Made by a program: the position numbers and the translations under genes
Source of the DNA: Sphingobacteriales bacterium 46-32
Lineage (GTDB): Bacteria > Bacteroidota > Bacteroidia > Chitinophagales > Chitinophagaceae
Direction of reading: 5' to 3'
NCBI GenBank assembly: GCA_001898485.1
Contig: MKTY01000019.1
Span: 434,001-498,000, forward strand
DNA: 64,000 nt
Notes under the pieces: generated by a model
Seen by the model: only the letters and a program-made list of their open reading frames with translations
Databases searched by the model: none
What the model was told of the DNA's origin: nothing
Shown here: positions 10,001-26,547 of the stretch, one piece after another
How positions within the stretch are numbered: the first letter of the stretch is position 1
Layout of the letters: the number at the start of each line of letters is the position of its first letter

Positions 10001-13000
10001 TCTTTTTTAACCTGGGTAATATTTCCGAAGATGTGCTGAAAGATGGTAAACGCCAGTACGAAAACGGATTGCCTACTCCCACAATCAATGCACCTGTCGA
10101 TAACTCTACTGTATGGGGTAAAGTACCTTCCAATCCCATGCAGGTGACCAATGCCTTCAGCAACGATCCCAACGATCGCCAGTATCAGGATGTTGGTTTT
10201 GATGGATTGACTGACGAAGAAGAACGTACCAAGTTCAGCACTTACCTGGCTGGTCTGGCAGCCGTGGCGCCTGCGGCCGCTGCACGCGCACAAAACGATC
10301 CATCGGCCGATAACTTTAAACCTTACCGCGATGCCAGCTATGATGCAGGCAATGTAGGCATCCTGGGGCGTTATAAAGACATTAATAACCCGCACGGCAA
10401 CTCGCCTGTATCCAACAATACACAGTTTGTAAATGCTTTTACTCAGTATCCGGATGCAGAAGAGCTAAACAGAGATAATACACTCAACGAAGTAGAAGAG
10501 TATTTTGAATATGAGGTAAACATTCAGCCCAATATGATGCCGGGCAGCAATTTTATTACAGACGTGCGAACTCCGACGGTTAAACTGGTCGATGGCAGCG
10601 AGCGCGTGGAGAAATGGTACCTGTTTCGTATTCCTGTTGCCGAGTTTACAAACAAGGTGGGTAATATCCCGGATTTCAAGTCTATTCGTTTTATTCGGAT
10701 GTATGTTACCGACTTTGAAGATTCTGTAGTCATGCGCTTTGGTAAACTGGAGCTGGTGCGTAACCAGTGGCGTAAATTCAAATATGAGATTGATACCACC
10801 GGCAATATCACCAACCTGCCGGCCAACGATCCGGTTGAGTTCAATACCCTGGCTGTAAACCTCGAAGAGAATGATCAGCGCGAGCCTATTCATTATGTGA
10901 TGCCTCCAGGTATTGATCGTCAGCAACAGCTGAGTAATAATAACGTTCAGCTTTTCCTGAATGAGCAATCATTGAGTGTGCAGATGTGTGGTATGCCTGG
11001 CGGCGAAGCACGTGGTGTGTTTAAGACGATGAACATGGATATGCGCCAGTATGGCCGCATGCGTATGTTTATTCACGCAGAAGGTCGCGGATCGAATGGG
11101 GCTATCTCCGACAACTCACTTGTAGCCATCGTGCGCCTGGGTAGCGATTTCCAGAGCAACTATTATGAAATACGTATTCCGCTGAAAAAATCAGACTGGG
11201 GTGTACGGGATAGTTTGTTGGTATGGCCCGAGATCAATAACCTGGATTTCGAACTCGATGAACTTACCCGTCTGAAGTCGAGACGAAACAGCCAGGGTGT
11301 TTCATCTGCTCAATACTATCGTGAAATACTGGCCAATGGCCGTTCTTATGCTGTAATCGGAAATCCTAACCTGGGTGAGGTAAGGGGCATGCTGTTATCT
11401 GTAGAAAATGCCAGCAGTGAGCCTGCCTGTGCTGAGGTTTGGTTTAATGAACTCCGTTTTTCAAATCTCGATGAAAAAGGAGGTTATGCCGCTACCGGTC
11501 GTGTGGATATCAAACTGGCCGACCTGGGTAGTATAACACTTGCAGGTACAGCCAAAACACGTGGTTTTGGTACACTGGAACAACGGGTGAATGAACGGAG
11601 CAGGGAAGATGTATATACATATGATTTGTCGGCCAACCTGGATGCGGGTAAACTCCTGCCCCGGCAGTTGGGTATTCAGATACCTGTCTATGCCGGTATC
11701 AGTCGTATTATCAGCACACCGGAATACGATCCCTATGATCTGGATATTACATTAAAAGATAAGCTGGCCGCGGCCAATTCAGGAGATAAGGATTCTATCC
11801 GGAGCGATGCACAGGATATCACTACTATCCGTACCATCAACTTCACCAATGTGAAGAAATTAAAAATTGATGGTAAGCAACCGAAAATATGGAGTCTCAG
11901 CAATTTCGATTTCAGTTATTCCTATATAGAAACCAAACAGCATAATCCGTTAATAGAGGCCTACGAGATGCGGCGAACACGGGCTGCTATAGGATATAAT
12001 TATATGCCGCAGCCACGGTATGTAGAGCCATTTAAACGAATGATCAAATCAAACTCACGCTGGCTGAGTCTGATTAAAGATTTTAACTTCAATTATGTGC
12101 CCACTCAACTTTCATTCCGGGCAGATGTGTTCCGCCAGTTTGGCGCTACACGTCCCCGCAATGTGGGAGGTGGACCATATAAGATACCTGAGACCTACGA
12201 CAAGTATTTCACCTTTGACCGTTATTATATCGTGCAGTGGAATCTGACCAAATCTATTTCACTCGATTATACGGCTACTAATAATGCACGTGTAGATGAG
12301 CCATTCGGACGCATAGATGATCGCATAAAGAAAGATTCTGTACGTAAAAATCTTTTCAAAGGCGGTCGTAATACACAGTTTGCGCAGGAGCTGGGACTTT
12401 CGTATACATTGCCGATGCAGAAAATACCGCTGCTTGACTGGACCTCGGTGCGTGCCACTTATAAAACGAGCTACAACTGGCTGGCCGCTTCTTTGCTGGC
12501 CCGTAATCTCGGTAATACGCTTTCTAATACTCAAACACGCGATATTACTGCAGACCTGAATTTTGATCAGCTGTACAATAAGTCGCGTTTCCTTCGTGCG
12601 GTAGGCAGCGGGCCTCAGCCCCGCAACAACCAGCCGGTTAACAATGCGATACCTGGTCAGGATACAGCTAAACGGAAAATAAGAAGCATACGCGATGAGA
12701 TACCTGACAGTGTATGGTCAAAAATGAGTGCAAAGGAAAAACGCCTGGCACGCAAAGAAGCCCGTAAGCGCAAGCGTGAAGAACGTCGCCGTCAGCGTGA
12801 ACTCAACCGTAATAAGCTGCCCGAAGTAAATGGCGCAGTACGTGCCATTACGAGCCTGGCTACTTCGCTTAAACGGGTGGGTATTCAATACAACGAAGAC
12901 TTTGGTACGACCATACCTGGCTATATGGACAGTACCCGCGTATTGGGCGCGAACCTGAAGAGCGGGCAGCCTGGCTTCAACTTCATATTCGGCTACCAGC

Positions 13001-14262
13001 CCGATACCAGTTGGATCAATCGCTTTGGAAGTAAGGGATTACTATCGCGCGACTCGCTGGTGTCTGCCATGATACAACAGCGATACAAGCAGCAATTGAA
13101 TATTACGGCACAACTTAATCCCGTGCGTGATCTTATCATCGATCTCAAACTGGATAAGAGCTTCAGCAAGCAATATTCAGAGTTATATAAGGATACTACC
13201 GGATCTTCTGGTTTTGCCCGTCTGAACCCCTATGCGATGGGTAGCTTCAGCATCAGCTACATCTCTTATCAGACCCTGTTCGAAAAATTTGATCCGAATG
13301 TTGTATCCAATACATTCAAAGAGTTTGAAAATAACCGCCTGATATTATCTAAGCGGTTGAGTGACCTCAATGGATACCAGGGGGGCGTTAAGGATCCCAA
13401 TGATCCGAATTATTACCAGGGTTATGGACGTTATGCTCAGGATGTGGTTATTCCTTCTTTCCTGGCAGCATATACTAAAAAGGATCCCACATCTGTTAAA
13501 CTGTTTAAGAACAGCAATCCCGGTATCCGGTCAAATCCCTTTGCAGGCCTGCTGCCCAAACCAAACTGGGATATCACATACAACGGGTTGTCCAATATTC
13601 CCGGTCTTGACAAAATATTTTCGAATGTGACCATTCGTCATGGGTATCACAGTACACTTAGCATGAATAGTTTCAACACGGCGCTGCTGTTTACAGATCC
13701 TAACCGTATTGGTTATCCTTATTTCCGTGACACTCTTACCGGAAACTATGTGCCCTACTTCCTGGTACCGAATCTTACCATCGAAGAGTCGTTTGATCCT
13801 ATGATCTCGCTTGATGTTACTTTCACCAATCAGCTGACAACACGATTTGAGTTCAGTAAGAGAAGACAACTCAGCCTTAGTCTCATCGACTATCAGCTGG
13901 CCGAAAACCGTTCAACCGAATTCCGTTTCGGTTTTAATTACCGCAAAAAAGGATTACCGCTGCTGAAAAATGTACGCATAGGCAAGAAAGGAATGAAGCT
14001 GGATAATGATGTTACATTCCGGCTTGACTTCTCGCTGCGCGATGATGCTACCGCCAACAGTAAGCTCGATCAGGGTACATCTTTCGGAACGGCTGGTCAG
14101 AAAGTGATTATCATTCAGCCTTCAATTGATTACGTTCTCAACAACCGCGTGAGCCTGAAACTCTATTTCGATCAGACACGCAATATTCCAAAGATCAGTA
14201 ATGCATTTCCGATTACTAACACGAGAGGCGGATTGTCGGTAAGAGTGTCGCTCGCACAGTAG
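7015..14262 (+). CDS. sprA: T9SS outer-membrane translocon / gliding motility protein SprA
   Basis: SprA forms the giant outer-membrane beta barrel through which type IX secretion cargo leaves the cell. The 2415-residue length agrees with known SprA proteins (about 2400). Features seen are a signal peptide (residues 1-26, ending GNAR), long beta-strand-rich stretches with many aromatic/Asn repeats, a KRKREERRRQRELNRNKLP basic loop about two thirds along, and the barrel-type C-terminus. The start appears to be TTG at 7015, since no ATG or GTG in frame lies near and the signal peptide begins there; an initiation codon of this kind on so large a gene is slightly unusual. The gene probably follows ruvA on the same transcript. 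Two T9SS cargo-like proteins and a PorE-like protein occur later in the window. Confidence 0.95.
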   Translation: MNRTTAHISRLAVVIVLLCFAWTGNARNYRDTIFKGNHVDTIPADSLRYPIRDRYGDPYSQPNRNTFDLKDTAFIKRNVEYDPVTGEYYITEKIGNKYYRTPVSFRRDEFIRMQGQKDEAEYFRKRSALLTDMNRRLFKPQFKTSNSWFNRIVGVGKVDIRPSGFVDLSAGYQGQNIKNPTLPERARRFGGLDFNMNSQLQVDASIGDKLRLPINYNTLANFEFENQLNLNYVGKDDEIVKQFQLGNVNFTTKSTYIPSAQSLFGVKTQLQFGKLFVTGVLANQRAQRQNLGLQGGTATQNFSLKADEYEENRHFLMAQYFRGKYNQAMSQLPVVNSTIQILRVEAWVTNRTGATTDTRDVVGLMDLGEGAPFGPWGGNANALPDNRANNLYNLLTGPGGTRNSSSIQSFLTSNGLTPVQDFEKTFARKLLPTDFYFNPQIGFISLNQPLQPDEVLGIAFQYTYNGRVYQVGEFSQDVPPDTSGATQRVLFLKLLKATSQRTYLPIWDLMMKNVYSVGYGQLDRTDFQLDVLYEEPSLGEKRYLPPTDVLPQYEGQPIISLLNLDRLNNQNDPQPDGKFDFVEGYTVISSMSRIIFPVLEPFGRDLEYIYPSAVERQKYLYYPLYDTIKAIAQTYANLNRFKLKGRSRSSSTGGGRYQLGFNVPKESVTVTAGGQTLIADVDYIIEAGEIQIINQAILSSGVPVNVSYENQEAFGIQQRNFMGLRLDYIASKKLTLGGTIARLGERPFFIKQQYGEDPVRNTMYGLDMDYRSDWPRLTKWLDKLPFYNTKTMSSITAYAEAAVLQPGHAPQIGRGSSGLAYIDDFEGTRSAIDLRFPLINWTLASVPQRFPEATLNNDLASGYNRAKLAWYNIEPVLQEKSNTNNPLRGNIAELSKPETRQVLQREIFPQRTTDFGQGLLTTFDMAFYPRDKGPYNFENRAGRIDGNGHLIDRRRAWGGIMRNIDQIDFETGNMEYIEFWLQDPFITNPGSTGGKLFFNLGNISEDVLKDGKRQYENGLPTPTINAPVDNSTVWGKVPSNPMQVTNAFSNDPNDRQYQDVGFDGLTDEEERTKFSTYLAGLAAVAPAAAARAQNDPSADNFKPYRDASYDAGNVGILGRYKDINNPHGNSPVSNNTQFVNAFTQYPDAEELNRDNTLNEVEEYFEYEVNIQPNMMPGSNFITDVRTPTVKLVDGSERVEKWYLFRIPVAEFTNKVGNIPDFKSIRFIRMYVTDFEDSVVMRFGKLELVRNQWRKFKYEIDTTGNITNLPANDPVEFNTLAVNLEENDQREPIHYVMPPGIDRQQQLSNNNVQLFLNEQSLSVQMCGMPGGEARGVFKTMNMDMRQYGRMRMFIHAEGRGSNGAISDNSLVAIVRLGSDFQSNYYEIRIPLKKSDWGVRDSLLVWPEINNLDFELDELTRLKSRRNSQGVSSAQYYREILANGRSYAVIGNPNLGEVRGMLLSVENASSEPACAEVWFNELRFSNLDEKGGYAATGRVDIKLADLGSITLAGTAKTRGFGTLEQRVNERSREDVYTYDLSANLDAGKLLPRQLGIQIPVYAGISRIISTPEYDPYDLDITLKDKLAAANSGDKDSIRSDAQDITTIRTINFTNVKKLKIDGKQPKIWSLSNFDFSYSYIETKQHNPLIEAYEMRRTRAAIGYNYMPQPRYVEPFKRMIKSNSRWLSLIKDFNFNYVPTQLSFRADVFRQFGATRPRNVGGGPYKIPETYDKYFTFDRYYIVQWNLTKSISLDYTATNNARVDEPFGRIDDRIKKDSVRKNLFKGGRNTQFAQELGLSYTLPMQKIPLLDWTSVRATYKTSYNWLAASLLARNLGNTLSNTQTRDITADLNFDQLYNKSRFLRAVGSGPQPRNNQPVNNAIPGQDTAKRKIRSIRDEIPDSVWSKMSAKEKRLARKEARKRKREERRRQRELNRNKLPEVNGAVRAITSLATSLKRVGIQYNEDFGTTIPGYMDSTRVLGANLKSGQPGFNFIFGYQPDTSWINRFGSKGLLSRDSLVSAMIQQRYKQQLNITAQLNPVRDLIIDLKLDKSFSKQYSELYKDTTGSSGFARLNPYAMGSFSISYISYQTLFEKFDPNVVSNTFKEFENNRLILSKRLSDLNGYQGGVKDPNDPNYYQGYGRYAQDVVIPSFLAAYTKKDPTSVKLFKNSNPGIRSNPFAGLLPKPNWDITYNGLSNIPGLDKIFSNVTIRHGYHSTLSMNSFNTALLFTDPNRIGYPYFRDTLTGNYVPYFLVPNLTIEESFDPMISLDVTFTNQLTTRFEFSKRRQLSLSLIDYQLAENRSTEFRFGFNYRKKGLPLLKNVRIGKKGMKLDNDVTFRLDFSLRDDATANSKLDQGTSFGTAGQKVIIIQPSIDYVLNNRVSLKLYFDQTRNIPKISNAFPITNTRGGLSVRVSLAQ

Positions 14263-14868: not shown

Positions 14869-16680
14869 TTACTTGCCTGCCGGAATCAGAATACTGAAGA
14901 CCTTATTCGTCCATACTTCGCGGTACTGATATTTTTGAATAAACTGATCGAGTGCCTGGTCTCTTTTTTCATTGATCTTATCCCAGTTGTCATCAAATTT
15001 GGCCGGAGGATCGGGCCACATGGAGGCATCGTCTACTGTTTTGATAAGCTGGCGGATAATTACAGGCAGGCGGCCGGTTTTTTCTGCAGTAGTATTAAGC
15101 TCATTGGCAAAAAAACTTCCTTCATAAAGCCAGGGCATGGCATTGCGCAGATAAGGCCTGGTATTGGTCATGTAATGAAGCAGTGGTACGCTGTGATAGA
15201 TCAGCACCGCATCGCCCGGGTGAATGTATTTGGAAGATTCATCTAATAATTCATTAATAGCGGTAGCACGTTCTTTTGTGGTGAATACGCCCCGCGTATA
15301 AGTATTGTTGACCTGGGCTGTCATACGGGCGCGGTCGTTCCAGTCAAAGAAAGGATAGTAGTATGCCTGGCGAAGCAGTGCCAGAAAGACCAAAAGGATA
15401 CCGACCTGTCCGATTGTGCGCAATTGTTCGGGTCTTAATAGTAATGAAAAACGCATGTTTTCCGAACGGCTCTGAATATTCCATTGGCTATCGAGTCTAA
15501 GCCATTTATTAAAATAGTCTACAGCAATGGGTACGCCAATCCAGAGAGTATATAATCCTACTGTATAGATGCCGTCCGAACTGCCCAGGGGGTAAGTGAG
15601 GATGATATACAGACCCATTAGCGCCAGCACTTTCAACTCCTTGTTTTTTTCTGAGATAAAAATGCAGATGGCTCCTAAAGTAGCAAGATCTGTAAGCAGG
15701 AAAACCATCATCAGGTGATTGATGGTGTCTGTCCAGATGAGCCATACAAAAGCGGCAATTATACCGAGTGTGAGCAGTTGAATCAGGGGTTTCCGGTAGG
15801 AGGGCCTGTAGGTAACAAGGTTACAGATCATAGCTGCACTGATTACGGGCAGTGCGATCAGTAAACCGTGTTTTACCGAAGAGCCATAGAGTACAAAGAA
15901 CTGTTTAAGTAATTTACTCAACCCGTAATGGCTGCTGGCTCCGCCACTACCCATTTCCATCACCAGTTTTACGGCACCAACATAATTGTCGTACTGATTG
16001 GTGATTTTCATGAATACTATCATGGCAGCCAGGCCGGCTATAAAACCTGCACCGTAGATAAGAGCCAGCCGGAACTGGCGGGCAAATGAATATTTGTGTA
16101 AAATGCCGTAATAAAAAATGGCGAGGGCCAGACCAAGATTTACGATACTGGGAATACGGGCCAGGGTCTCGAGTGCAACCATTACCCCGGCCAGGAAGAT
16201 CAGCCAGGGGTTATTGCGGGTAAGGCCCCGCAACAAAAAAAGCGCACATAACATGTACAACAACATGCACAGGTAGTTGTAATGGAATATGCGGATATTA
16301 TTGGAAATAACGAGAAGCGTAAACAACAGGCCCAGTCGCAGAGCACCTTTATTGAGGTAGGGACGCAGCAGTCTGTAACTCAGCAGACAGGTGCAGGTGA
16401 GCGTAATGGCCCCCAGGATTCGCAATCCAAGCAGACCCAGCGAAGGAAATAAATAATCAAAAGCGCCTCCGATAACACCTGTCAGCCAAAACATGAAGGA
16501 GTATTGAACGGATTCGGGATTGCTATAAATATTCCGGTAAAAAACGGCATTAAAACCTTCATCGGACAGATCAAGGCCCTGAAATGTCATCAGAACGGTG
16601 TAGAGAAGTATAATTCCGGCAAAAACCCAGGCAGGCAATTTTTCCAACAGTGCCGGAATTGAGATCTTTTGTAAAAACAT
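14869..16680 (-). CDS. Polytopic membrane glycosyltransferase-like protein (GT-C / PMT superfamily)
   Basis: A 603-residue inner-membrane protein with about ten or more hydrophobic helices in its first 450 residues and a soluble C-terminal part. LDLSDEGF, with D40-E41 just after the first helix, is the acidic motif expected in the first periplasmic loop of GT-C enzymes, which use polyprenyl-phosphate sugars as donors. The family includes ArnT and the protein mannosyltransferases; the acceptor here is unknown. It is transcribed divergently from the rightward amino-sugar gene run that encodes an ArnC/GtrB-like GT2 and a small flippase-like protein, so it is a good candidate for the final transferase of that pathway. 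That link is an inference from position and family. Confidence 0.75.
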   Translation of the reverse strand: MFLQKISIPALLEKLPAWVFAGIILLYTVLMTFQGLDLSDEGFNAVFYRNIYSNPESVQYSFMFWLTGVIGGAFDYLFPSLGLLGLRILGAITLTCTCLLSYRLLRPYLNKGALRLGLLFTLLVISNNIRIFHYNYLCMLLYMLCALFLLRGLTRNNPWLIFLAGVMVALETLARIPSIVNLGLALAIFYYGILHKYSFARQFRLALIYGAGFIAGLAAMIVFMKITNQYDNYVGAVKLVMEMGSGGASSHYGLSKLLKQFFVLYGSSVKHGLLIALPVISAAMICNLVTYRPSYRKPLIQLLTLGIIAAFVWLIWTDTINHLMMVFLLTDLATLGAICIFISEKNKELKVLALMGLYIILTYPLGSSDGIYTVGLYTLWIGVPIAVDYFNKWLRLDSQWNIQSRSENMRFSLLLRPEQLRTIGQVGILLVFLALLRQAYYYPFFDWNDRARMTAQVNNTYTRGVFTTKERATAINELLDESSKYIHPGDAVLIYHSVPLLHYMTNTRPYLRNAMPWLYEGSFFANELNTTAEKTGRLPVIIRQLIKTVDDASMWPDPPAKFDDNWDKINEKRDQALDQFIQKYQYREVWTNKVFSILIPAGK

Positions 16681-17158: not shown

Positions 17159-18172
17159 ATGGCAAACATTTCAATTGGTGTAATAGGCTATGGATATTGG
17201 GGGCCTAACATCGTCCGGAATTTTTTCAATGTCTCCAACTGTACAGTAAAAAAAGTGGCAGACGCGCGCCCTGAGCGACTTAATCAACTACATAAGATTT
17301 TTCCCGGTATAGAAGGTGTGGCAAGTGCCGATGACATATTGCAGGATCCAACGATTGATGCAGTAGTTATCGTAACACCTGTATTTACCCATTTCGAGCT
17401 GGCCAGGAAAGCTCTTTTGCAGGGAAAACATGTGCTGGTGGAAAAACCCATGACAGCATCTGTGGCAGAGGCAGATGAACTGATGAACCTGGCAGAGCAG
17501 AAAGGGTGTACCCTTATGGTTGACCATACTTTTCTCTATACCGGTGCTGTATCAAAAATCAAGGAGCTGATTGAGGATAAATCAATCGGCACACCCCGTT
17601 ATTTTGATTCAACACGTATTAACCTGGGACTGTTTCAGCCGGATATCAATGTGCTGTGGGATCTTGCTGCGCATGACTTATCAATCCTCGCCCATCTTAT
17701 CGATGAAGAACCGGTGAGCGTTAATGCAACCGGTATTTCGCATACAGGCAACGGTATTGAGAATATTGCTTACATGACGGTCAATTATGCTTCCGACTTT
17801 ATTGCGCATTTTCACTGCTCCTGGACCTCGCCTGTAAAAATCCGCCAGATGCTTATTGGAGCCGATAAAAAAATGCTGCTCTACAACGATCTTGAAATTA
17901 CGGAGAAAGTGAAAGTATATGATACCGGTTATAGTCTCAAAACAGAAGAAGACCGTAAGCAGATTCTGGTCGATTATCGTACCGGCGATATTTTCATCCC
18001 CAAACTTTCCAGCAAAGAAGCTCTCTTTGGAGTTGCAGACGATTTTGTACAGTCTATTGTGAATAAGCGGCAGCCTGTAGCGAGTGCCGCGTTGGGAAGA
18101 CGTGTTGTACAACTGCTGGAAGCATCACAAACCTCTATCAGTAACAAAGGAAAAGAAGTAAAAATCAGTTAA
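17159..18172 (+). CDS. Gfo/Idh/MocA-family nucleotide-sugar dehydrogenase, WlbA/WbpB-like
   Basis: A 337-residue NAD-dependent oxidoreductase. The Rossmann loop GVIGYGYWGPN is at residues 7-17 and the family motif E95-K96-P97 follows in VEKPMTAS. The gene order dehydrogenase, hexapeptide acetyltransferase, DegT aminotransferase matches the Wlb/Wbp enzymes that turn UDP-GlcNAc uronate into UDP-GlcNAc(3NAc)A, where this protein would oxidise C3. It opens the rightward run, three bases ahead of the acetyltransferase gene. The substrate is inferred from context; sugar oxidoreductases of other pathways share the same motifs. Confidence 0.85.
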   Translation: MANISIGVIGYGYWGPNIVRNFFNVSNCTVKKVADARPERLNQLHKIFPGIEGVASADDILQDPTIDAVVIVTPVFTHFELARKALLQGKHVLVEKPMTASVAEADELMNLAEQKGCTLMVDHTFLYTGAVSKIKELIEDKSIGTPRYFDSTRINLGLFQPDINVLWDLAAHDLSILAHLIDEEPVSVNATGISHTGNGIENIAYMTVNYASDFIAHFHCSWTSPVKIRQMLIGADKKMLLYNDLEITEKVKVYDTGYSLKTEEDRKQILVDYRTGDIFIPKLSSKEALFGVADDFVQSIVNKRQPVASAALGRRVVQLLEASQTSISNKGKEVKIS

Positions 18173-18175
18173 TAT

Positions 18176-18664
18176 ATGGAACTGGTCACCATCAACAACG
18201 ATCGCCAAAGCCTGAACAATGTATCTCTCGGACAGGGTGTACGCATCTTCAGTTTTGTAAACGCCTATGGATGCAGTATTGATGACAACAGTAAAGTCGG
18301 AGCCTTTGTAGAAATACAAAAAGGAGTTACTATTGGTAAGAACTGCAAAATATCAAGTCATACGTTTATCTGTGAAGGTGTTCACATAGAAGATAATGTA
18401 TTTGTGGGTCATGGGGTAATGTTTACCAACGATCTTTTTCCACGGGCTACCAATGACGACGGAAGTATGCAGACAGAAGCTGATTGGAAGTGTATTGAGA
18501 CCTTCGTGAAAAAAGGAGCTTCCATTGGCAGCAATGCGACCATTTTATGCGGCATTACTATTGGCGAAAATTCTATGATAGGAGCGGGCGCCGTTGTTAC
18601 CCGCGATGTGCCGCCAAATACGATCGTTGCCGGAAACCCTGCGAAACCCATCAAAACCATCTAA
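18176..18664 (+). CDS. Hexapeptide-repeat N-acetyltransferase, WlbB/WbpD-like
   Basis: A 162-residue left-handed beta-helix acyltransferase. Hexapeptide turns run through most of the chain, such as IGKNCKISSHTFICEGVHIEDNVF split over residues 50-80 and later IGSNATILCGITIGENSMIG. The ending VPPNTIVAGNPAKPIK is the usual C-terminal turn of this family. The loop near FTNDLFPRATNDDG is typical of 3-N-acetyltransferases acting on UDP-amino sugars. It would acetylate the 3-amine made by the downstream aminotransferase. It starts three bases after the dehydrogenase stop and the aminotransferase follows after 21 bases. Confidence 0.88.
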   Translation: MELVTINNDRQSLNNVSLGQGVRIFSFVNAYGCSIDDNSKVGAFVEIQKGVTIGKNCKISSHTFICEGVHIEDNVFVGHGVMFTNDLFPRATNDDGSMQTEADWKCIETFVKKGASIGSNATILCGITIGENSMIGAGAVVTRDVPPNTIVAGNPAKPIKTI

Positions 18665-18685: not shown

Positions 18686-19786
18686 ATGAACAAGAAAATC
18701 AATTGCCTTGACCTGAAAGGGCAGCATCAGCAGATAAAGAGCGAAGTATTTGAAGTATTTGAAAAGGTGTATGAACAAACAGCCTTTTCGGGAGGCTCAT
18801 TTGTAGAAAGTTTTGAAAAGGATTTTGCCGCCTTTTGTGATACCCGGTATGCCGTTGGCATCAACAATGGTACGTCTGCCCTTCATTTAGCCATGCTTAC
18901 CCTGGGCATAGGAGCGGGCGATGAAGTAATAGTGCCTGCAAATACATTTATTGCTACCGCCTGGGGCGTTTCCTATGTGGGTGCTACGCCTGTATTTGTA
19001 GATTGTCTGCCAGACACCTGGGAAATTGATCCTGCCAAAGCAGAAGCCGCCATCACTCCCCGCACGAAGGCGATAATTGGCGTACATCTCTACGGACAGC
19101 CTTTTAATATAGATGCTATTAAAGCAATTTGTGATAAACATAAACTGTTTATGGTAGAAGATGCGGCTCAGGCCCAGGGTGCGCGCTACAATGGCAAACC
19201 CGTAGGTGGGTTTGGCGAAATGGCCTGTTTCAGCTTTTACCCCGGAAAAAACCTGGGTGCATGCGGCGAAGCCGGAGGAATGACAACAAATAATGAAGCT
19301 TATTATAAACACCTGCTCAGCCTGCGCAGCCATGGTATGACGGTTCGTTACTACCATGACGAACTTGGTTTTAATATGCGAATGGGTGGACTGGAAGCGG
19401 GTTCACTGTCTGTTAAACTGAAATATCTGCCCGGCTGGAATAAACGTCGCCAGGAAATTGCCAAACGTTATCTTGCCGAAATCAAGAATGATAAGTTGCG
19501 CATGCAGGCTCAGCCCGAAAATGTATTATCGGTTTTTCATCTCTTCGTAATTACTACACCAGATCGCGATGGGATGATCAAATATCTCAATGAACATAAT
19601 ATCTATCCCGGACTGCATTATCCTGTGCCCTGTCACTTACAAAAGGCATACTCACACCTGGGATACAAAGAAGGTGATTGCCCGAATTCAGAATACCTGT
19701 CTTCACATTGCCTTTCATTGCCCATGTATGCAGAGCTTACAGATGAGGAAGTGGACTATGTGATAAAAACGATCAACAATTATTGA
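18686..19786 (+). CDS. DegT/DnrJ/EryC1-type sugar aminotransferase, WlbC-like
   Basis: A 366-residue PLP enzyme that transfers an amine from glutamate to a keto-sugar nucleotide. The cofactor lysine is K188 in SFYPGKNLGACGEAGG; VEDAAQAQGARYNG and NNGTSALHLAM are family marks. Its place directly after the dehydrogenase and acetyltransferase genes suggests it aminates C3, giving the substrate for the acetyltransferase. A second DegT-type gene lies at 24034-25164, so the locus probably makes two different aminated sugars, or one sugar aminated at two positions. Confidence 0.9.
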   Translation: MNKKINCLDLKGQHQQIKSEVFEVFEKVYEQTAFSGGSFVESFEKDFAAFCDTRYAVGINNGTSALHLAMLTLGIGAGDEVIVPANTFIATAWGVSYVGATPVFVDCLPDTWEIDPAKAEAAITPRTKAIIGVHLYGQPFNIDAIKAICDKHKLFMVEDAAQAQGARYNGKPVGGFGEMACFSFYPGKNLGACGEAGGMTTNNEAYYKHLLSLRSHGMTVRYYHDELGFNMRMGGLEAGSLSVKLKYLPGWNKRRQEIAKRYLAEIKNDKLRMQAQPENVLSVFHLFVITTPDRDGMIKYLNEHNIYPGLHYPVPCHLQKAYSHLGYKEGDCPNSEYLSSHCLSLPMYAELTDEEVDYVIKTINNY

Positions 19787-19788
19787 GT

Positions 19789-20817
19789 ATGCTGGCACGC
19801 AAATTAAAAGAAAGGGTAGAAGCGCTGAAGTTGAATCTGCAGGGTAAAACTGTGCTGACAGAAGCGGCTTCAGGACCTTATGTGGTGACGCCGGTACTGG
19901 CGGCTCTTGCCGGCGCCAGAGTATTTGCCTACTCCCGTACAACCCGCTATGGCACAGTAGAAGAAGTATTTGAATCAACCCGTAAACTGGCAGACGAAGC
20001 GGGTGTGGAAATCAACCTGATCACAGAGATTACACCAGAGATTGTTGCTGAAGCCGACATTATTACCAATTCAGGACATCTTCGGCCATTGAACCGCGAG
20101 AAACTGCAATATGCCAAAAACGGCCTGGTCATACCCCTCATGTATGAAGCCTGGGAATGGCGCGAAGCAGATATGGATATTCAATATATCAGGGAACGCG
20201 GATTTCAGCTGGGTGCTACCAACGAACGCCATCCGGATATTGATGTATTCAACTACCTCGGCGATATGGCCGTAAGGCAAATATTTGATGCCGGTACCTG
20301 CCCTTATCAGAACAGATTTATCCTTTTGTGCAACAATGATTTTGGCCCCTATATGGCGAAGGTCATTGCGCGCAATTGTGAAGAATTGCTTGTGATTGAT
20401 AAAGACGAAAACCGCGACAAATACGAACTCTCCGATAATATAGTTTGGGCGGGAGGTTTTCCGGAGATTGATATCCCCGGCAACTTCAGAAATGCGGAGG
20501 CTGTAATATTTACAGCGTATCCGTTTGATAAGGTATGGATTGATCATGGCGGCCCGATAGAAGTGGCTGATCTGGCCCGTCAACTCAATGATCCGTTCAT
20601 ACTCCGTTATGCCGGCGATGTGAATACTGATGCCTTGCAAAAACAAGGCATACGTTATTTTCCCGAACATGTACATAGCGGTCATATGGGCATTCTTCCT
20701 TCAGCAGTGGGCAATGATCCTATTATTCGCTTGCAGGCAGGAGGTTTAAAGGCAGCTGAAGCCTTGGTGACAGGACAACATTTTTATAAAGATCTTCCGA
20801 TCGTTGAATTGATATGA
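19789..20817 (+). CDS. Unrecognised two-lobed Rossmann-like protein in glycan locus
   Basis: A 342-residue soluble protein I do not recognise. Two Rossmann-like beta-alpha units are visible: GKTVLTEAASGPYVVTPVLA near residue 20, followed by an ARVFAYSR strand, and RFILLCNNDFGPYMAKVIA near residue 170, followed by EELLVIDKD. In general shape this recalls the NAD-domain enzymes related to adenosylhomocysteinase or D-2-hydroxyacid dehydrogenases, but no catalytic signature was identified. FPEHVHSGHMGILPSAVGND near the C-terminus holds two His and may be functional. The ATG at 19789 comes two bases after the preceding stop, though a TTG at 19783 is possible. Its end overlaps the formyltransferase start by four bases (ATGA), so their products are probably made in step. 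A role in sugar or sugar-cofactor chemistry is inference. Confidence 0.7.
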   Translation: MLARKLKERVEALKLNLQGKTVLTEAASGPYVVTPVLAALAGARVFAYSRTTRYGTVEEVFESTRKLADEAGVEINLITEITPEIVAEADIITNSGHLRPLNREKLQYAKNGLVIPLMYEAWEWREADMDIQYIRERGFQLGATNERHPDIDVFNYLGDMAVRQIFDAGTCPYQNRFILLCNNDFGPYMAKVIARNCEELLVIDKDENRDKYELSDNIVWAGGFPEIDIPGNFRNAEAVIFTAYPFDKVWIDHGGPIEVADLARQLNDPFILRYAGDVNTDALQKQGIRYFPEHVHSGHMGILPSAVGNDPIIRLQAGGLKAAEALVTGQHFYKDLPIVELI

Positions 20818-21749
20818 CAACAGAGAGAAACATAATTGCTATTGGGCGTTCCCGTTACCTGTATGATGGTATCCGTCATGTGCAGCAGCATGGATATAAA
20901 GTGCGGGCTATTGTTACTGAAGAAGCTTACGACGAGTATGATATCAAACACCAGGATTTTGAACGCCTGGCAAAGGAGATAGGGGCCGCTTTCTTTATGA
21001 TACGCTCACTTGAAAATGAAGAGTTAATCAGCATATTGCAGCAGCACAATGTACGTGCTGCTATCAGTGCGAACTGGAAGTATACTATCCAGCCTTCGGT
21101 GCTGGATCGGTTTGAATGCGGCATTCTTAATTTTCATTTGGGCAACCTGCCGGATTATAAAGGAAATGCTACCGTAAACTGGAGTATTATCAACGGCGAG
21201 CGTTATATCAACGGAAATATTCACAAGATGGACCCCGAGCTGGATGCCGGCGATATTCTGTCGCGTAAATCCATTCCGATCCAAAATGACTCTTATATCG
21301 CTGATGTGCTGGCTGAGGCCGAAAAAATAGCACCCGATTTGTATCGGCAGGCGCTTGACCGCGTATGGAATGATCCGCAGGCATACGAACTTAAAGGCTC
21401 TGTCCAGGGCCTGCGTTGCTACCCCCGTTTACCCGAAGACGGACGCATCAACTGGCAGCTACCGGCAGAGCAGGTAGTGCGGCTTATACGGGCCTCTTCT
21501 CACCCTTATCTTGGTGCATTCAGTTATCTCAATGAGGAGAAAGTGGTGATCTGGAAAGCAAAAGTCTGGATGCCTGAAAGCCGTTTTCTGGCTATCCCGG
21601 GGCATGTGGTTGAAATACGGAAACAGGCAGGTACTGTGCTGGTAGCTGGTCCTGATGCAATGATAGAAGTAGAGGAAATAGAAGTAAATGGCACTGTAAT
21701 GCGTCCGACCGATTATATTAAAAGCATTCGTGTACGATTCAAATCATGA
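20814..21749 (+). CDS. Sugar N-formyltransferase (Fmt/ArnA_N family)
   Basis: A 311-residue protein of the 10-formyltetrahydrofolate-dependent formyltransferase family. The catalytic Asn-His-Asp set is complete: N106 and H108 in LNFHLGNLPDYKG and D144 in PELDAGDIL. The 38-residue step between the Asn and Asp is the same as in ArnA. Length and the C-terminal OB-like part (residues 200-311) also fit sugar and Met-tRNA formyltransferases; the surrounding genes favour an amino-sugar nucleotide as acceptor. ATGA overlaps join it to the unrecognised gene before it and to the GT2 gene after it. folE and folD, which feed the folate pool, are in this window but far from the locus. Confidence 0.82.
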   Translation: MTTERNIIAIGRSRYLYDGIRHVQQHGYKVRAIVTEEAYDEYDIKHQDFERLAKEIGAAFFMIRSLENEELISILQQHNVRAAISANWKYTIQPSVLDRFECGILNFHLGNLPDYKGNATVNWSIINGERYINGNIHKMDPELDAGDILSRKSIPIQNDSYIADVLAEAEKIAPDLYRQALDRVWNDPQAYELKGSVQGLRCYPRLPEDGRINWQLPAEQVVRLIRASSHPYLGAFSYLNEEKVVIWKAKVWMPESRFLAIPGHVVEIRKQAGTVLVAGPDAMIEVEEIEVNGTVMRPTDYIKSIRVRFKS

Positions 21750-22699
21750 GTATGCCGGATACAACAAGCTCCATACAGGTTTCGGTTATCATCCCCATCT
21801 TTAATGAATACGATGGTATTCCTTTTCTGGTTGACAGCCTTAACGATTTCTTTGCACAGCATCCGCTGCGGGCAGAAGTGATTTTTGTGAACGACGGATC
21901 ACGCGATAATTCTGTTGAGCGGCTTTCGGCAATGGAACATAAAAGCTATAAAGCAAAACTCATCAGCTTTTCCAGAAACTTCGGCTCACATGCGGCCCTG
22001 CGTGCCGGCATTGCTGAGGCTTCAGGAGAAATGATCTGTTTTAATTACGCTGACCTGCAGGATCCGCTTGAGCTGATCCTGACGATGAAAGAAAAAATGG
22101 AGCAGGGCGCTGATATCGTCTGGGCCCACAGAGAGAGCACTAAAGTGTCCTGGAGCGAAAAGGCATTCTCACAGTTTTATGCCTACCTCATGAAAAAATT
22201 TGCTTTCCGCAACTTTCCTGAGAAGGGATTCGACATCGTGATGTTCAACCGCAAAGTGGCCCGGGAAGTGAATAAAAATGTAGAAGCCAACTCATCAATC
22301 TTTTTACAGATACTGGGCATGGGATTCCGGCAGGAATCTATTTCATACAAAAAGAGGGAACGCCAGACAGGTGTCAGCAAATGGACGCTGTCTAAAAAGA
22401 TCAAACTCTTTATTGATTCTTTTGTAGCCTTTTCCTATGCCCCCATCCGGTTTGTGACTATTGTGGGGATCATATTCTTTTTTGTAGGCATATTGTGGAC
22501 CATCTACATTATTGTGCGGAAGATATTCTTCCAGGATCTGGCAGCCGGATGGCCTGCACTGATGTCTATTCTGATGATTGGATTTGGTATTACCAATATA
22601 TCGCTCGGTATTATCGCCGAATATCTCTGGCGTACCCTTGACGCCAGCCGCAAACGACAGGTGTTTATCATTGATGATATTAAAAATCTGAATGAATGA
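21746..22699 (+). CDS. Polyprenyl-phosphate glycosyltransferase, GT2 family (ArnC/GtrB/DPM1-like)
   Basis: A 317-residue GT2 enzyme with an N-terminal GT-A domain and two C-terminal membrane helices (about residues 232-256 and 265-292), as in ArnC and GtrB, which join a sugar to undecaprenyl phosphate on the cytoplasmic face. SVIIPIFNEYDGIP, FVNDGSRDNS and SFSRNFGSHAALRAG are conserved family segments. The metal-site segment reads YADLQDP where the family usually has DADLQDP, so the first Asp is Tyr while the second Asp and Gln remain. It overlaps the formyltransferase before it and the flippase-like gene after it by four bases each. Confidence 0.87.
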   Translation: MSMPDTTSSIQVSVIIPIFNEYDGIPFLVDSLNDFFAQHPLRAEVIFVNDGSRDNSVERLSAMEHKSYKAKLISFSRNFGSHAALRAGIAEASGEMICFNYADLQDPLELILTMKEKMEQGADIVWAHRESTKVSWSEKAFSQFYAYLMKKFAFRNFPEKGFDIVMFNRKVAREVNKNVEANSSIFLQILGMGFRQESISYKKRERQTGVSKWTLSKKIKLFIDSFVAFSYAPIRFVTIVGIIFFFVGILWTIYIIVRKIFFQDLAAGWPALMSILMIGFGITNISLGIIAEYLWRTLDASRKRQVFIIDDIKNLNE

Positions 22700-23067
22700 T
22701 AAAAGCGGTTGTTTTCTGCCTGTTGTATGCCATTCTCAATGTGACTGGCGCTGCTCTCATTAAATGGAAGCTGAAAGGACGCACGTTGTCGGCGGTTAAT
22801 GACTGGCTGAAACTCCTGTTTGAACCACAGGTAATTGCCGCATTTGCATTGATATTCCTTTCCATGCTGGTAATCTTCAAAGCATTGTCGCTGGCCAATT
22901 TTACGTTTGTAATTCCCGTGTCGGCAGGTATCAACTTTGTACTTACCGTAATAGCAGGATATTTTATTTTTAAAGACTCACTTAATTATATTTCATTTAT
23001 AGGTTTTGCATTGATCATATCCGGTATTTTATTACTAAGCCTTAACAATACACAACATGCACAATAA
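22696..23067 (+). CDS. Small four-helix membrane protein, ArnE/SMR-like
   Basis: A 123-residue protein with four predicted membrane helices at about residues 3-22, 43-65, 69-92 and 98-116. The hydrophobic pattern, the VIPVSAGINFVLTVIAGYFIF segment in two parts around residues 73-93 and its size fit the small EamA/SMR-type proteins such as ArnE, which act in flipping undecaprenyl-phosphate sugars. It lies between a GT2 that would make such a lipid-linked sugar and a sugar epimerase, overlapping the first by four bases and the second by eleven. Flippase activity is inferred from size, fold and neighbours. Confidence 0.78.
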   Translation: MIKAVVFCLLYAILNVTGAALIKWKLKGRTLSAVNDWLKLLFEPQVIAAFALIFLSMLVIFKALSLANFTFVIPVSAGINFVLTVIAGYFIFKDSLNYISFIGFALIISGILLLSLNNTQHAQ

Positions 23068-24028
23068 AGTAAAGGACAGTACGATCCTGGTAACCGGCGG
23101 CGCTGGTTTTATCGGATCTTATGTAGTGGAAGAGCTATTGCAGCTGCAACCTGCAAAGATCGTAATCATTGATAATTTTATCCGCGGAAGCCGCGAAAAC
23201 ATGAAGTTGTTTGCTGCCGATCCGCGTATTGAGTTTCACCAGGGAGATATACGTGATACAGCGTTGCTCGAAAGCTGTATCAGTGGCTGCGATTATATTT
23301 TCCATATGGCTGCACTTCGTATCAACGCGTGTGCTGCCAATCCTGCTGATGGTTTTGAAGTAATGCTGAAAGCTACTTTTGATGTGGCGCAGCTTGCAGT
23401 AAAGCATAAAATAAAGAAAGTTATCTATAGCTCCAGTGCCTCTGTATACGGACTGGCGCAGCATTTTCCAACACCTGAGACCGACAATCCGTATAATAAC
23501 CAGACTTTTTATGGTGCGGCCAAAATGTGGGGCGAGCAGCTGTTTCGCAGCTTCAAATTCATGTATGGACTTGATTATGTAGCCCTACGTTATTTCAATG
23601 CTTATGGCCCCCGCATGGATACAGATGGTAAGTATACCGAAGTAATGATCAAATGGCTGGATTGTATCCGCGATGGCCGCAATCCATTGATCTATGGAGA
23701 CGGCTCTACTACCATGGATTTTGTATATGTAAGGGATATTGCCCGGGCAAACATAGCCGCTTTACAGGCAGATATTTCCGATGAAGCATTTAATATCGGC
23801 AACTGCGAAGAAACGAGTCTTAAACAATTGCTGGATGTACTGCTGAAAGTAAATGATTCCACGCTTGAGCCGGAGTTTCGTGAAGAAAACAGTATTAACC
23901 CGGTAAGCCGCCGCCTGGCCGATATCAGCAAGGCAAAACAGCTGTTGTCGTTTTCACCTTCTGTAAGTCTTGAACAGGGTATGAAAGAACTGAGTGCCTG
24001 GTATTTTGAAAAAATAAAAACAGCCTGA
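23057..24028 (+). CDS. NAD-dependent sugar epimerase/dehydratase (extended SDR)
   Basis: A 323-residue extended short-chain dehydrogenase. The NAD loop GGAGFIGS is near residue 14, and the catalytic Tyr-Lys pair lies in FYGAAKMWGE, preceded by the SSSASVYG segment. It resembles UDP-glucose/UDP-GlcNAc 4-epimerases and related 4,6-dehydratases; the epimerase type seems more likely from RYFNAYGPRM, but the product sugar is unknown. It overlaps the small membrane protein gene by eleven bases and is followed after five bases by the second aminotransferase gene, so they are clearly in one operon. Confidence 0.88.
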   Translation: MHNKVKDSTILVTGGAGFIGSYVVEELLQLQPAKIVIIDNFIRGSRENMKLFAADPRIEFHQGDIRDTALLESCISGCDYIFHMAALRINACAANPADGFEVMLKATFDVAQLAVKHKIKKVIYSSSASVYGLAQHFPTPETDNPYNNQTFYGAAKMWGEQLFRSFKFMYGLDYVALRYFNAYGPRMDTDGKYTEVMIKWLDCIRDGRNPLIYGDGSTTMDFVYVRDIARANIAALQADISDEAFNIGNCEETSLKQLLDVLLKVNDSTLEPEFREENSINPVSRRLADISKAKQLLSFSPSVSLEQGMKELSAWYFEKIKTA

Positions 24029-24033
24029 ATAGT

Positions 24034-25164
24034 ATGATACCTATAGCCAAACCTTACCTGACTGCCGAAGATGCACAGGCCGCCTACGATACTATTTTAA
24101 CAGGGTGGATTACGCAGGGCCCCCGCGTGGCAGAGTTCGAAGAGAAATTCGCACAGTATACCGGCGCCCGCTATGCAGTGGCGGTTTCTAACTGTACCAC
24201 AGCATTGCATCTGTCAATGATTGTTGCCGGTATTGGCCCCGGCGATGAAGTCATTTGTCCCTCCATGAGTTATATTGCTACAGCCAACTCCATCAAATAT
24301 GTAGGAGCCAAACCCGTATTTGCCGAAGTAAATCCGGTAACGTACAATTTAGATGCAGAAGATGTGGCCAGGCGCATAACACCCCGTACAAAAGCCATAT
24401 TGCTGGTACACCAGATCGGTATGCCTGCAGACATCGATGCCTTTTCTGCACTGGCACAAAAGCATAACCTGCATCTTATAGAAGATGCAGCCTGTGCAGT
24501 CGGCTCTTCCTATAAGGGAAAGAAAATTGGCAGCCATAGCAGCCTCGTATGTTTTTCTCTTCACCCGCGCAAAGTGATTTCTACGGGCGACGGAGGTTTT
24601 ATTACAACCGACAATGAGGCCTATTATAACCGCCTCCGGTTATTGCGCCAGCACGGTATGTCTATCAACGACCGAGTACGGCATGAATCTGCCAAAGTAA
24701 TGTTTGAAGATCATGTAGAAGTCGGTTACAATTACCGCATGACGGATATTCAGGCAGCCGTGGGCATTCAGCAACTGGCCAAGCTCGACTGGATCGTGGA
24801 AGAAAGAAGAAAGATTGCTAAGCAATACCAGGCGGCATTTGCTGATATTCCCTTTATCCGCGTGCCCCGGGAAGCTGATGGCTATTTTACCAATTTTCAG
24901 TCATTCAGTATTTATCTGAAAAAGGATTGCCCTGTATCACGTAATGATCTGATGCAACTGATGCTCGATGCTGGTGTCTCCACACGCAGAGGTATCATGA
25001 CTGCACATCGTGAAACAGCGTATAAACAGGAATGTGCAGGATTGTCATTACCGGTTTCTGAAGATGCGGCCGACAATAGCATAATCCTGCCATTATATAT
25101 TCCCATGCAGCAATCAGATATTGATAAGGTGATCCAGGTTTTCAGAAGCAGCCTGGGCGTATAG
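24034..25164 (+). CDS. Second DegT/DnrJ/EryC1-type sugar aminotransferase
   Basis: A 376-residue PLP enzyme with cofactor lysine K180 in SLHPRKVISTGDGG and the segments VSNCTTALHLSM and IEDAACAVGSSYKG. It differs clearly from the first aminotransferase of the locus and resembles 4-aminotransferases that act on 4-keto sugars. Following an SDR epimerase/dehydratase, it could aminate a 4-keto intermediate, and the formyltransferase upstream could then formylate the new amine. It is the last gene before a strong terminator, so it closes the main transcript. Confidence 0.9.
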   Translation: MIPIAKPYLTAEDAQAAYDTILTGWITQGPRVAEFEEKFAQYTGARYAVAVSNCTTALHLSMIVAGIGPGDEVICPSMSYIATANSIKYVGAKPVFAEVNPVTYNLDAEDVARRITPRTKAILLVHQIGMPADIDAFSALAQKHNLHLIEDAACAVGSSYKGKKIGSHSSLVCFSLHPRKVISTGDGGFITTDNEAYYNRLRLLRQHGMSINDRVRHESAKVMFEDHVEVGYNYRMTDIQAAVGIQQLAKLDWIVEERRKIAKQYQAAFADIPFIRVPREADGYFTNFQSFSIYLKKDCPVSRNDLMQLMLDAGVSTRRGIMTAHRETAYKQECAGLSLPVSEDAADNSIILPLYIPMQQSDIDKVIQVFRSSLGV

Positions 25165-25269: not shown

Positions 25270-26547
25270 ATGCAAAAAATCAGTATTGTTGGTTTTGGGA
25301 AAATTGGCCAGGCCATGGCGGCCCATATTCTGCGGCAGGGCTGGCAGGTCACCGCTATTGACAATAATGCAGAACAGCTGAATTTTTATACCACTAGCGG
25401 GTTTCATTCTGTCGAACCCGGTGTGGAAGATATTATTCAGCCAGCCCTTTATGCCGGTCACTTACAGCTTTCTCCCGATTACGCTTCGGTCAGCGGCAGC
25501 GCTGCGATTATTCTATGTATACCATTACTCGTAGATGAGCAAAAGCAGATCAATAAGACTCCGTTTCTCGACTGTGTGCAACAGCTTGCCCCATGGCTGC
25601 AGCAAAAGGTGCTGTTGATGGTGGAGACATCTGTGCCGGTTGGTTTTTGCAGAAAGGATATTCAGCCGGTTCTTACCAGCACTGGTAAAACGCATGGCAC
25701 AGACTATTTACTCGCTGCAAGCCCGGAACGTATTAAGAGTGGTACAATGCTGGAGCAGTTACAAAATATTCCTCGTGCCCTGGGAGGGCTGGATGCTGAG
25801 GCCGGACAGGCGGCATTGAAAGTCTATGGACATTTTTTCAGAAATGAACAATTGATCCTGCTACCAGGTGCTGAAGCAGCCGAGTTTATGAAGCTGGCAG
25901 GAATGGTTTATCGCGATGTCAATATAGCCCTCTCCAATCAACTGGCGATGTTTGCACAGGCAACAGGTCTTGATCTGGTTGACCTTATTCCATTGATTAA
26001 TGCAGATCGGGAAGCTGCGTTATTGCAACCCGGTATAGGGGTAGGAGGACACTGCACGCCGGTTTATCCCTATTTTATGATGGAGAATTTCAGAGAGGCC
26101 GGGCTCGATTTTTCGCTGGCGGCCGAAAGCCGGCGAATTAATGAAGCCATGGCTGCGTTTGCCTGGTCTCAGTTGAAGACACATCTCCATAAAAAGAAAG
26201 TGCTGATACTGGGTTTATCATTCCGGCCGCAGGTAAAAGAAGATGCGCTGAGTGTAACATATAATTTACAGAAAGTACTGGAAAGTGAAAATGTCTCCGC
26301 TCAGTTACATGATCCTTATTATTCGGCTGAAGAGATAAGGGGTAAAGGATTTGATCCCTGCCCGGATATTTATGCAACAACAGCGGAAGCAGTTATTCTT
26401 GTCACGATGCATAAAATGTATCATGAAATCGACTGGCTTGTAATGAAAGAAAAGGGAGTTCGTTTTGTTCTAGATGGGCGTAATCAGCTTGACAGAGCAG
26501 CAATAGAAAAGGCGGGGCTGCAATACACAGGTATTGGGAAATTATGA
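25270..26547 (+). CDS. Nucleotide-sugar 6-dehydrogenase (WecC/WbpA/Ugd family)
   Basis: A 425-residue enzyme that oxidises C6 of a UDP-sugar to the uronic acid with two NAD. The NAD loop is GFGKIGQAM (8-16), the catalytic Cys262 is in GVGGHCTPVYPYF and the supporting lysine is K208 in EFMKLAGMVYRDVN. The family includes UDP-Glc, UDP-GlcNAc and UDP-ManNAc dehydrogenases; the WlbA/B/C-like genes just upstream suggest UDP-GlcNAc as substrate. It is separated from them by a strong terminator and is followed by another, so it may be a single-gene unit. Confidence 0.9.
   Translation: MQKISIVGFGKIGQAMAAHILRQGWQVTAIDNNAEQLNFYTTSGFHSVEPGVEDIIQPALYAGHLQLSPDYASVSGSAAIILCIPLLVDEQKQINKTPFLDCVQQLAPWLQQKVLLMVETSVPVGFCRKDIQPVLTSTGKTHGTDYLLAASPERIKSGTMLEQLQNIPRALGGLDAEAGQAALKVYGHFFRNEQLILLPGAEAAEFMKLAGMVYRDVNIALSNQLAMFAQATGLDLVDLIPLINADREAALLQPGIGVGGHCTPVYPYFMMENFREAGLDFSLAAESRRINEAMAAFAWSQLKTHLHKKKVLILGLSFRPQVKEDALSVTYNLQKVLESENVSAQLHDPYYSAEEIRGKGFDPCPDIYATTAEAVILVTMHKMYHEIDWLVMKEKGVRFVLDGRNQLDRAAIEKAGLQYTGIGKL

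Follow-up and report, generated by a model that had tools for sequence, protein, structure and literature searches.

The 342-residue product of the gene at positions 19789 to 20817 of the window (the whole 64,000-nucleotide stretch of DNA that was analyzed), for which we coin the name TWOR, belongs to an enzyme family without a name; its fold is known, and the pathway it sits in is a variant of an established type. TWOR is an add-on step that is paired with a swappable N-acyltransferase in a single slot, outside the backbone of its operon. Judging from gene content and sequence, we think the balance tips slightly toward TWOR being a dedicated enzyme in the synthesis of an Arn-like, undecaprenyl-phosphate-linked, multiply aminated and N-acylated sugar, perhaps as a cofactor-free isomerase or epimerase acting before N-acylation. 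Sugar pathways are usually read from the names of the families that compose them, and the TWOR step is named by no family library, yet the same partners accompany it in four phyla, and its coupling to N-formylation runs one way. Such a pathway could yield a new reaction on a dehydrogenase fold, along with the structure of an Arn-like surface sugar that is so far probably undescribed.

The TWOR open reading frame is intact (ATG at 19789, TGA at 20815 to 20817), confirming the 342-residue protein of the first-pass annotation, and is single copy in its own genome. The gene overlaps claimed there are likewise all present: the last four bases of TWOR, ATGA, form the overlap with the formyltransferase gene FMT (ATG at 20814), the start codon of GT2 (21746) overlaps the FMT stop codon (21747 to 21749), and GT2 overlaps the SMR flippase gene (22696 versus 22699). 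To these can be added an overlap between SMR and EPI (23057 versus 23067) and, on the other side, a DEGT1 stop only 2 bases 5' of the TWOR ATG, on which that annotation was silent (Table 1). Relative to its nearest relative (L002; 93% identity), TWOR has a dN/dS of 0.077, as expected of a functional protein-coding gene under purifying selection; this low ratio, together with relatives that extend to 30% identity and retain colinear motifs in four phyla, shows TWOR to be more than a chance open reading frame. When the two loci are compared (window 19789 to 20814, L002 4698 to 5723), TWOR diverges far more than its operon neighbors, silent sites included: its pS is 0.39 versus 0.23 to 0.28 for DEGT1, FMT, GT2, and EPI, and the neighbors are 98 to 100% identical, with the exception of UGDH (93%). 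The excess could reflect local recombination or a faster change of this single gene.

Table 1. TWOR and neighboring genes of the window
Feature	Description	Position	Strand	Basis or remark
	603-aa membrane protein, weak PMT_2 match (25.5 bits, cutoff 26.1)	14869..16680	-	Upstream, divergent from operon
GFO	Gfo/Idh/MocA oxidoreductase	17159..18172	+	Nearest NCBIfam model UDP-GlcNAc 3-dehydrogenase, 125.7 bits versus cutoff of 450
HEX	Hexapeptide (left-handed beta-helix) acyltransferase	18176..18664	+	Family scans
DEGT1	DegT aminotransferase	18686..19786	+	Nearest solved structure QdtB (3frk, E 2.2e-102)
TWOR	342-aa two-Rossmann protein, unnamed family; gene of the finding	19789..20817	+	ORF, family scans, fold model
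FMT	Sugar-type formyltransferase, N- and C-terminal formyltransferase domains	20814..21749	+	Family scans
GT2	ArnC/PgfS-like glycosyltransferase family 2	21746..22699	+	Family scans
SMR	Small membrane transporter, weakly ArnE/SMR-like	22696..23067	+	Family scans
EPI	Extended SDR, epimerase-type SSSASVYG...YGAAK motif	23057..24028	+	Family scans, motif
DEGT2	DegT aminotransferase	24034..25164	+	Nearest models PseC (328 bits), ArnB (300 bits)
UGDH	Nucleotide-sugar 6-dehydrogenase	25270..26547	+	Family scans; detected near TWOR only in window, L002, L007

From the families of its members, we infer that the operon specifies a pathway that is Arn-like in outline and carries an added 3-amino branch, with amines expected at C3 and C4 of the sugar. 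The divergently oriented membrane protein is a candidate ArnT-like final transferase, and homologues of it occur in 11 of the 28 TWOR loci described below as well as in one locus that has no TWOR (L097). With respect to a Wlb assignment, WlbA structures of Thermus and Chromobacterium are absent from the best 60 of the 87 PDB matches to GFO, which excludes nothing. Upstream of the sugar cluster, the window also encodes a 2415-residue SprA homologue (7015 to 14262; SprA_N, gliding/type IX secretion).

As first annotated, TWOR bears no catalytic signature that can be named. Searches with the single protein returned no match in Pfam (E ≤ 10), PHROGs, or the sequences of the PDB and only one, attributable to chance, in NCBIfam (E = 0.068). 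Five relatives scanned against Pfam gave one match, to PF00389 (E = 0.22, 11.6 bits versus a cutoff of 24.6); neither these relatives nor TWOR itself matches the D-2-hydroxyacid dehydrogenase families (PF00389/PF02826) above the curated cutoffs, nor does TWOR match the SAH hydrolase family PF05221. When profiles were aligned with hhalign to the SAH hydrolase, 2-hydroxyacid dehydrogenase, alanine-dehydrogenase-like, and control proteins of the same genome, nothing significant emerged: the SAH hydrolase scored probabilities of 0.6 with profile A1 (22 relatives) and 2.6 with profile A3 (24 sequences from four phyla), and the best single-sequence probability was 4.0 (E = 0.01, L062). No paper on the protein was found among open-licence publications, where absence proves little.

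A scan of genome contigs recovered 21 relatives at 55 to 93% identity, 20 of which are annotated as Bacteroidota or its subgroups, the remaining one being the actinobacterium Pedococcus cremeus. TWOR was present in 1 of 395 genomes sampled from the phylum (its own genome only), 3 of 396 from the order, and 17 of 394 from the taxonomic family, the last including two divergent copies (G592 and G731; 30 to 32% identity). Plasmid-borne relatives occur in Planctomycetota (Isosphaeraceae, 43%) and Alphaproteobacteria (Paracoccus, 36%), and 4 of 297 genomes from the order around Pedococcus, itself counted, possess the gene. The family is thus rare and spans at least four phyla (Bacteroidota, Planctomycetota, Alphaproteobacteria, and Actinomycetota). 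A partial relative (L045, 7754 to 8062; 38% identity across some 98 residues) stands at the end of one contig that is catalogued as viral, which no count includes; a search of phage records gave no match to TWOR, and a viral fold library gave no useful one.

Conservation in the TWOR family is centered on the first of two domains. Residues invariant in 24/24 sequences of A3 lie mostly in domain 1 (T24, E25, Y31, T93-N94-S95-G96, R99-P100, L117-M118, E120, W122-E123, D128, and E146) and less often beyond it (F185, G276, P292, M300, G308, L315-Q316, G319, and K321), and the columns of domain 1 have a lower mean entropy (1.17 bits) than those of domain 2 (1.68 bits). The C-terminal ends of strands are the usual site of Rossmann active sites, and 10 of the 14 invariant polar residues fall within nine-residue stretches at such ends (p about 0.01); the conserved E25, N94-S95, R99, E120, E123, and E146 lie along the ends of the strands in the N-terminal domain. 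The histidine-containing segment noted previously near the C terminus is HVHSGHMG (residues about 294 to 301), whose GHM is invariant in A1; in the wider A3, His299 varies and M300 is invariant. When profiled separately, the two domains align with each other across 37 columns (hhalign E = 0.00068 in one comparison, probability 27), which is suggestive of a repeated half-Rossmann.

The two Rossmann-like units proposed in the first-pass annotation are recovered in an AlphaFold2 model (pLDDT 86.7), which places them at residues about 14 to 150 and 170 to 310, along with a linker helix and a C-terminal helix; its pTM of 0.71 makes the geometry between the domains uncertain. Among PDB entries, the matches that Foldseek lists for the whole model comprise formate and other 2-hydroxyacid dehydrogenases, alanine dehydrogenase/transhydrogenase domain I, SAH hydrolase, and dipicolinate synthase A (E of 1e-8 to 1e-6, 9 to 14% identity). 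VIA-align similarly recovers the two-Rossmann fold with linker and closing helix (Z of 13 to 15, rmsd of about 7 to 8 over about 260 residues), with 3d4o (Z 15.0, rmsd 8.4, 262 aligned) and 1b3r (Z 14.1, rmsd 7.6, 300 aligned) as the best structural matches. Such large rmsd values suggest that the angle between the domains is not the same. Where GxGxxG would be expected, the first loops of the window protein read TEAASG (domain 1, with the invariant E25 inside the loop) and CNNDFG (domain 2), and the second-domain loop is DNPF in several divergent relatives, with DDEF also seen; none of the 24 sequences of A3 has GxGxxG in either domain. As modeled, TWOR is a dehydrogenase-type fold from which the usual dinucleotide loop has gone in both domains. 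This, and the lack of a significant match to any oxidoreductase family, leaves the sugar oxidation or deoxygenation first suggested for it unsupported.

To place TWOR in its genomic setting, we considered 28 loci outside the window (L002 to L022, L041 to L044, and L056 to L058), leaving aside its own genome, a Pedococcus contig with DegT genes (L059), and the viral-listed fragment; 14 of the 17 TWOR genomes in the family sample correspond to contigs already among the scan loci and were counted once. Partners in these loci are GFO (24), DEGT1 (23), DEGT2 (22), and an FMT of the window type (20), so that the survey bears out the formyltransferase association that had been suggested; the absences include loci at contig ends (L003, L008, L014, and L044), and in the Pedococcus locus L019, both DegT genes lie on another contig of the genome. 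FMT directly follows TWOR in 19 of the 20 loci that have it, the exception being L042, where roughly 5 kb separates the two genes and FMT is on the opposite strand. The gene order of the window operon is kept in most relatives, and in an actinobacterium (L058), the genes form one run in the order GFO-EPI-DEGT2-TWOR-FMT-DEGT1. A distant relative on a 7.6-kb contig (L044) has a methyltransferase and a glycosyltransferase near TWOR and no aminotransferase. Two distant loci have genes for asparagine-synthase-type amidotransferases, enzymes that can make amidino sugars, near TWOR (L043, 7455 to 9350; L041, 21762 to 23717). Some genes are split over two overlapping frames, GFO and an SDR on the Paracoccus plasmid (L042, 10368 to 11628 and 12782 to 13775) and GFO and FMT in L007 (6046 to 6979 and 11017 to 11972), suggesting frameshifts or sequencing errors in these records.

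An SDR with the EPI motif is present in most TWOR loci. In L007, it is replaced by an ArnA/UXS-like SDR of the TSE type, adjoined by a nucleotide-sugar dehydrogenase, and L020 and L042 have other SE-bearing SDRs in the EPI role. TWOR is constant across these variants, and its step is therefore probably independent of the treatment of C5/C6. UGDH was detected in the cluster in a single genus (window, L002, and L007), and its position beside the ArnA/UXS-like SDR of L007 hints that the sugar changed from hexose to pentose inside that genus.

The link between TWOR and FMT runs in one direction: FMT implies TWOR, and TWOR persists without FMT. With the window FMT as the query (E ≤ 1e-60), 14 of 388 genomes of the taxonomic family contain a window-type FMT, and all 14 are among the 17 that bear TWOR, the opposite of the loss of TWOR from most FMT-keeping loci that would have spoken against a shared role; these genomes are relatives from 6 genera, so the 14 do not amount to 14 independent events. 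The reverse dependence fails, since window-type FMT is missing from 8 of the 28 TWOR loci, and the supposed lock to the formyltransferase accordingly stands from the side of FMT and not from that of TWOR. In 6 of these 8 loci, another N-acyltransferase is at hand. A GNAT adjoins TWOR in L008, L014, and L021 (Pfam was run on L021 alone, and the other two are classed by their homology to it), an LpxD-like hexapeptide enzyme adjoins it in L016 and L043, and a NeuD-like acyltransferase lies one gene on from it in L017, so that TWOR does not simply exclude the NeuD-like class. The other two of the 8 loci hold distant relatives that depart from the usual arrangement: L020 lacks a clear N-acyltransferase in the position just downstream of TWOR, and L044 is the contig with a methyltransferase and a glycosyltransferase described above.

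Genomes that keep the rest of the pathway place TWOR outside the backbone. A search with the window DEGT1 (E ≤ 1e-110) found the aminotransferase in 10 of 117 genomes, of which 4 have TWOR (G000, G436, G433, and G470) and 6 do not; a direct search of these 6 with the TWOR profile gave only a 34-residue chance match (E = 0.32). Two of the 6 have only GFO and DEGT1 (G480) or these and HEX (G427). The backbone is retained in the other 4: G397, G440, and G423 have GFO-HEX-DEGT1, a NeuD-like acyltransferase, GT2, an SDR, and DEGT2, and in G491, GFO-HEX-DEGT1-GT2-SMR-EPI-DEGT2 are present and the slot between DEGT1 and GT2 is empty. The TWOR-less locus of G423 (L095, 11766 to 15889) has a divergent SDR in the place of EPI and two DegT/SDR pairs in tandem. 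Thus, 3-amination, and indeed the whole two-amine backbone, is possible without TWOR. The earlier argument for a needed step in a sugar pathway consequently holds as to membership of the pathway and the tie to FMT, and not as to need, given the four genomes that retain GFO-HEX-DEGT1-GT2-SDR-DEGT2 in its absence.

The glycosyltransferase varies with the content of the slot. Identity to the window GT2 is 67 to 87% in FMT loci (12 loci, omitting the near-identical L002 and L015, which has no GT2), 60 to 63% in TWOR-less loci (4 loci), 50 to 53% in loci with a GNAT or LpxD-like enzyme (4 loci), and 33 to 34% in L017 and L020, values that include an effect of kinship, the divergence being partly phylogenetic. 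DEGT2, in contrast, remains 71 to 81% identical to that of the window wherever a locus reaches it (L008 and L014 do not), a pattern that would follow if the variable step came after DEGT2 and before GT2. In effect, the slot that separates DEGT1 from GT2 offers a natural variant series (TWOR with FMT, GNAT, or an LpxD-like enzyme; a NeuD-like enzyme alone; or nothing) in which the diversification of a sugar can be compared.

These observations suggest a scheme in which the early roles are taken from family membership. GFO would oxidize C3 of a nucleotide-linked sugar, DEGT1 would aminate it, and HEX would acetylate the resulting amine; EPI, or another SDR, would make a keto group at C4 for amination by DEGT2. 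TWOR would then work on the nucleotide-linked amino or keto sugar, after one or more of the backbone aminations and before the last N-acylation, changing a stereocenter or the position of a carbonyl without NAD(P). The partner N-acyltransferase (FMT in the window, a GNAT or LpxD-like enzyme elsewhere) would cap an amine, GT2 would place the capped sugar on the lipid, and outward transport would fall to SMR and the PMT_2-like protein. The FMT and GNAT acyltransferases of the Arn and pseudaminate pathways use 4-amino sugars of L configuration, and those of the NeuD/PglD type act on D-configured ones; these preferences hint at a stereochemical change by TWOR, with which L017, having TWOR together with a NeuD-like enzyme, fits poorly. 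Roles as an oxidative decarboxylase or a 4,6-dehydratase were considered for TWOR and rejected, both being SDR roles that EPI or its replacements fill.

The type of reaction, taken on its own, is a tentative guess. We favor cofactor-free acid/base isomerization or epimerization because acids and amides are conserved at the strand ends, the dinucleotide loop is missing, and redox chemistry can be assigned to GFO and EPI. About as likely, TWOR could be an oxidoreductase that uses NAD(P) through an unconventional loop to oxidize or reduce a sugar nucleotide or to recycle the NADH of GFO, a reading to which we likewise give well under even odds. The whole-model fold matches listed are all dehydrogenases or related NAD proteins, and domain 1 modeled alone (pLDDT 88.9) resembles NAD-binding domains, that of dipicolinate synthase A (2rir, Z 10.6, rmsd 2.8, 118 aligned) as well as those of shikimate and alanine dehydrogenases. 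Weak profile matches point the same way, the best for A1 among PDB sequences being quinate/shikimate dehydrogenase (E = 0.088, not significant) and that for A2 (10 diverse sequences) being PdxB over its linker and NAD domain (E = 0.39). The overwhelming majority of this fold family depends on NAD(P), and the loss of both loops may signify only an unusual mode of cofactor binding. Against an oxidoreductase stand the absence of GxGxxG from both domains in all 24 sequences, with an invariant glutamate inside the first loop, the want of a significant oxidoreductase family match, and the fact that each keto step already has its oxidoreductase in GFO or EPI.

That TWOR is instead a two-Rossmann group-transfer enzyme, transcarbamoylase-like or GT-B-like, placing a substituent on the amino sugar, is distinctly unlikely. 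Domain 1 alone does match aspartate and ornithine transcarbamoylases (3csu, Z 9.9, rmsd 3.7, 134 aligned, and several others), a result tied with that for dipicolinate synthase A insofar as matches within one Z unit are treated as equal; the transcarbamoylase-type fold is often cofactor-free, and transferases are always found around TWOR. However, transcarbamoylases are absent among the matches listed for the whole model, which are headed by proteins of the dehydrogenase fold, the STRT motif that binds carbamoyl phosphate is not seen in TWOR, and a separate N-acyltransferase is nearly always at hand. Least probable of all is a noncatalytic partner such as a scaffold or chaperone for the N-acyltransferase or the aminotransferases: TWOR is paired with several unrelated acyltransferases and, relative to L002, changes faster than its operon neighbors, but binding hardly explains one constant partner for unrelated acyltransferase folds, and the invariant polar residues lie at catalytic-edge positions. 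Returning to the cofactor-free isomerase or epimerase, its boldest form, which we hold with slightly less assurance than the reaction type itself, is that TWOR founds a new family whose two-Rossmann fold, of dehydrogenase type, gave up both of its dinucleotide sites to become a cofactor-free sugar-nucleotide isomerase or epimerase. Such an enzyme would convert what a triamino-sugar backbone produces into a form for capping by formyl-, GNAT-, or LpxD-like N-acyltransferases, and insertion of the TWOR-acyltransferase pair into a single operon slot would thereby re-code the exported sugar.

Parts of this system resemble known ones. GnnA and GnnB carry out the 3-amination of UDP-GlcNAc, and the window has the same combination of a Gfo/Idh/MocA dehydrogenase with a DegT aminotransferase, GFO scoring well under the cutoff of the UDP-GlcNAc 3-dehydrogenase model. 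At the level of fold, the modeled TWOR would share its two Rossmann domains, linker, and closing C-terminal helix with dipicolinate synthase subunit A, D-2-hydroxyacid dehydrogenases, alanine dehydrogenase, and SAH hydrolase; it is unlike this group in its low identity to them (9 to 14%), the lack of a significant sequence match, its degenerate dinucleotide loops, and a conservation centered on domain 1.

A further likeness is to the Arn pathway (ArnA, ArnB, ArnC, ArnD, ArnE/F, and ArnT), with which the TWOR operon shares an aminotransferase near ArnB, an N-formyltransferase, an ArnC-like GT2, an ArnE-like transporter, and a PMT_2-like protein. Published passages on Arn give the order as amine, N-formyl, undecaprenyl transfer, and periplasmic transfer (PMC12650200), which is also the order of the scheme above. 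The TWOR operon differs in its extra 3-amino branch (GFO, HEX, and DEGT1), in an EPI with the epimerase-type SSSASVYG in place of the ArnA-type TSE motif of the oxidative decarboxylase, and in TWOR itself, which has no Arn counterpart; Pfam scans of the operon and its adjacent genes detected no ArnD-like deformylase. The O-antigen of Psychrobacter cryohalolentis contains 2,3,4-triacetamido-2,3,4-trideoxy-L-arabinose, in an account from 2021 that calls its biosynthesis unknown (PMC8040287). By analogy only, the sugar of the window being either a pentose or a hexose, the three neighboring acylamino groups of that arabinose are of the kind that GFO and DEGT1 together with EPI and DEGT2 would give.
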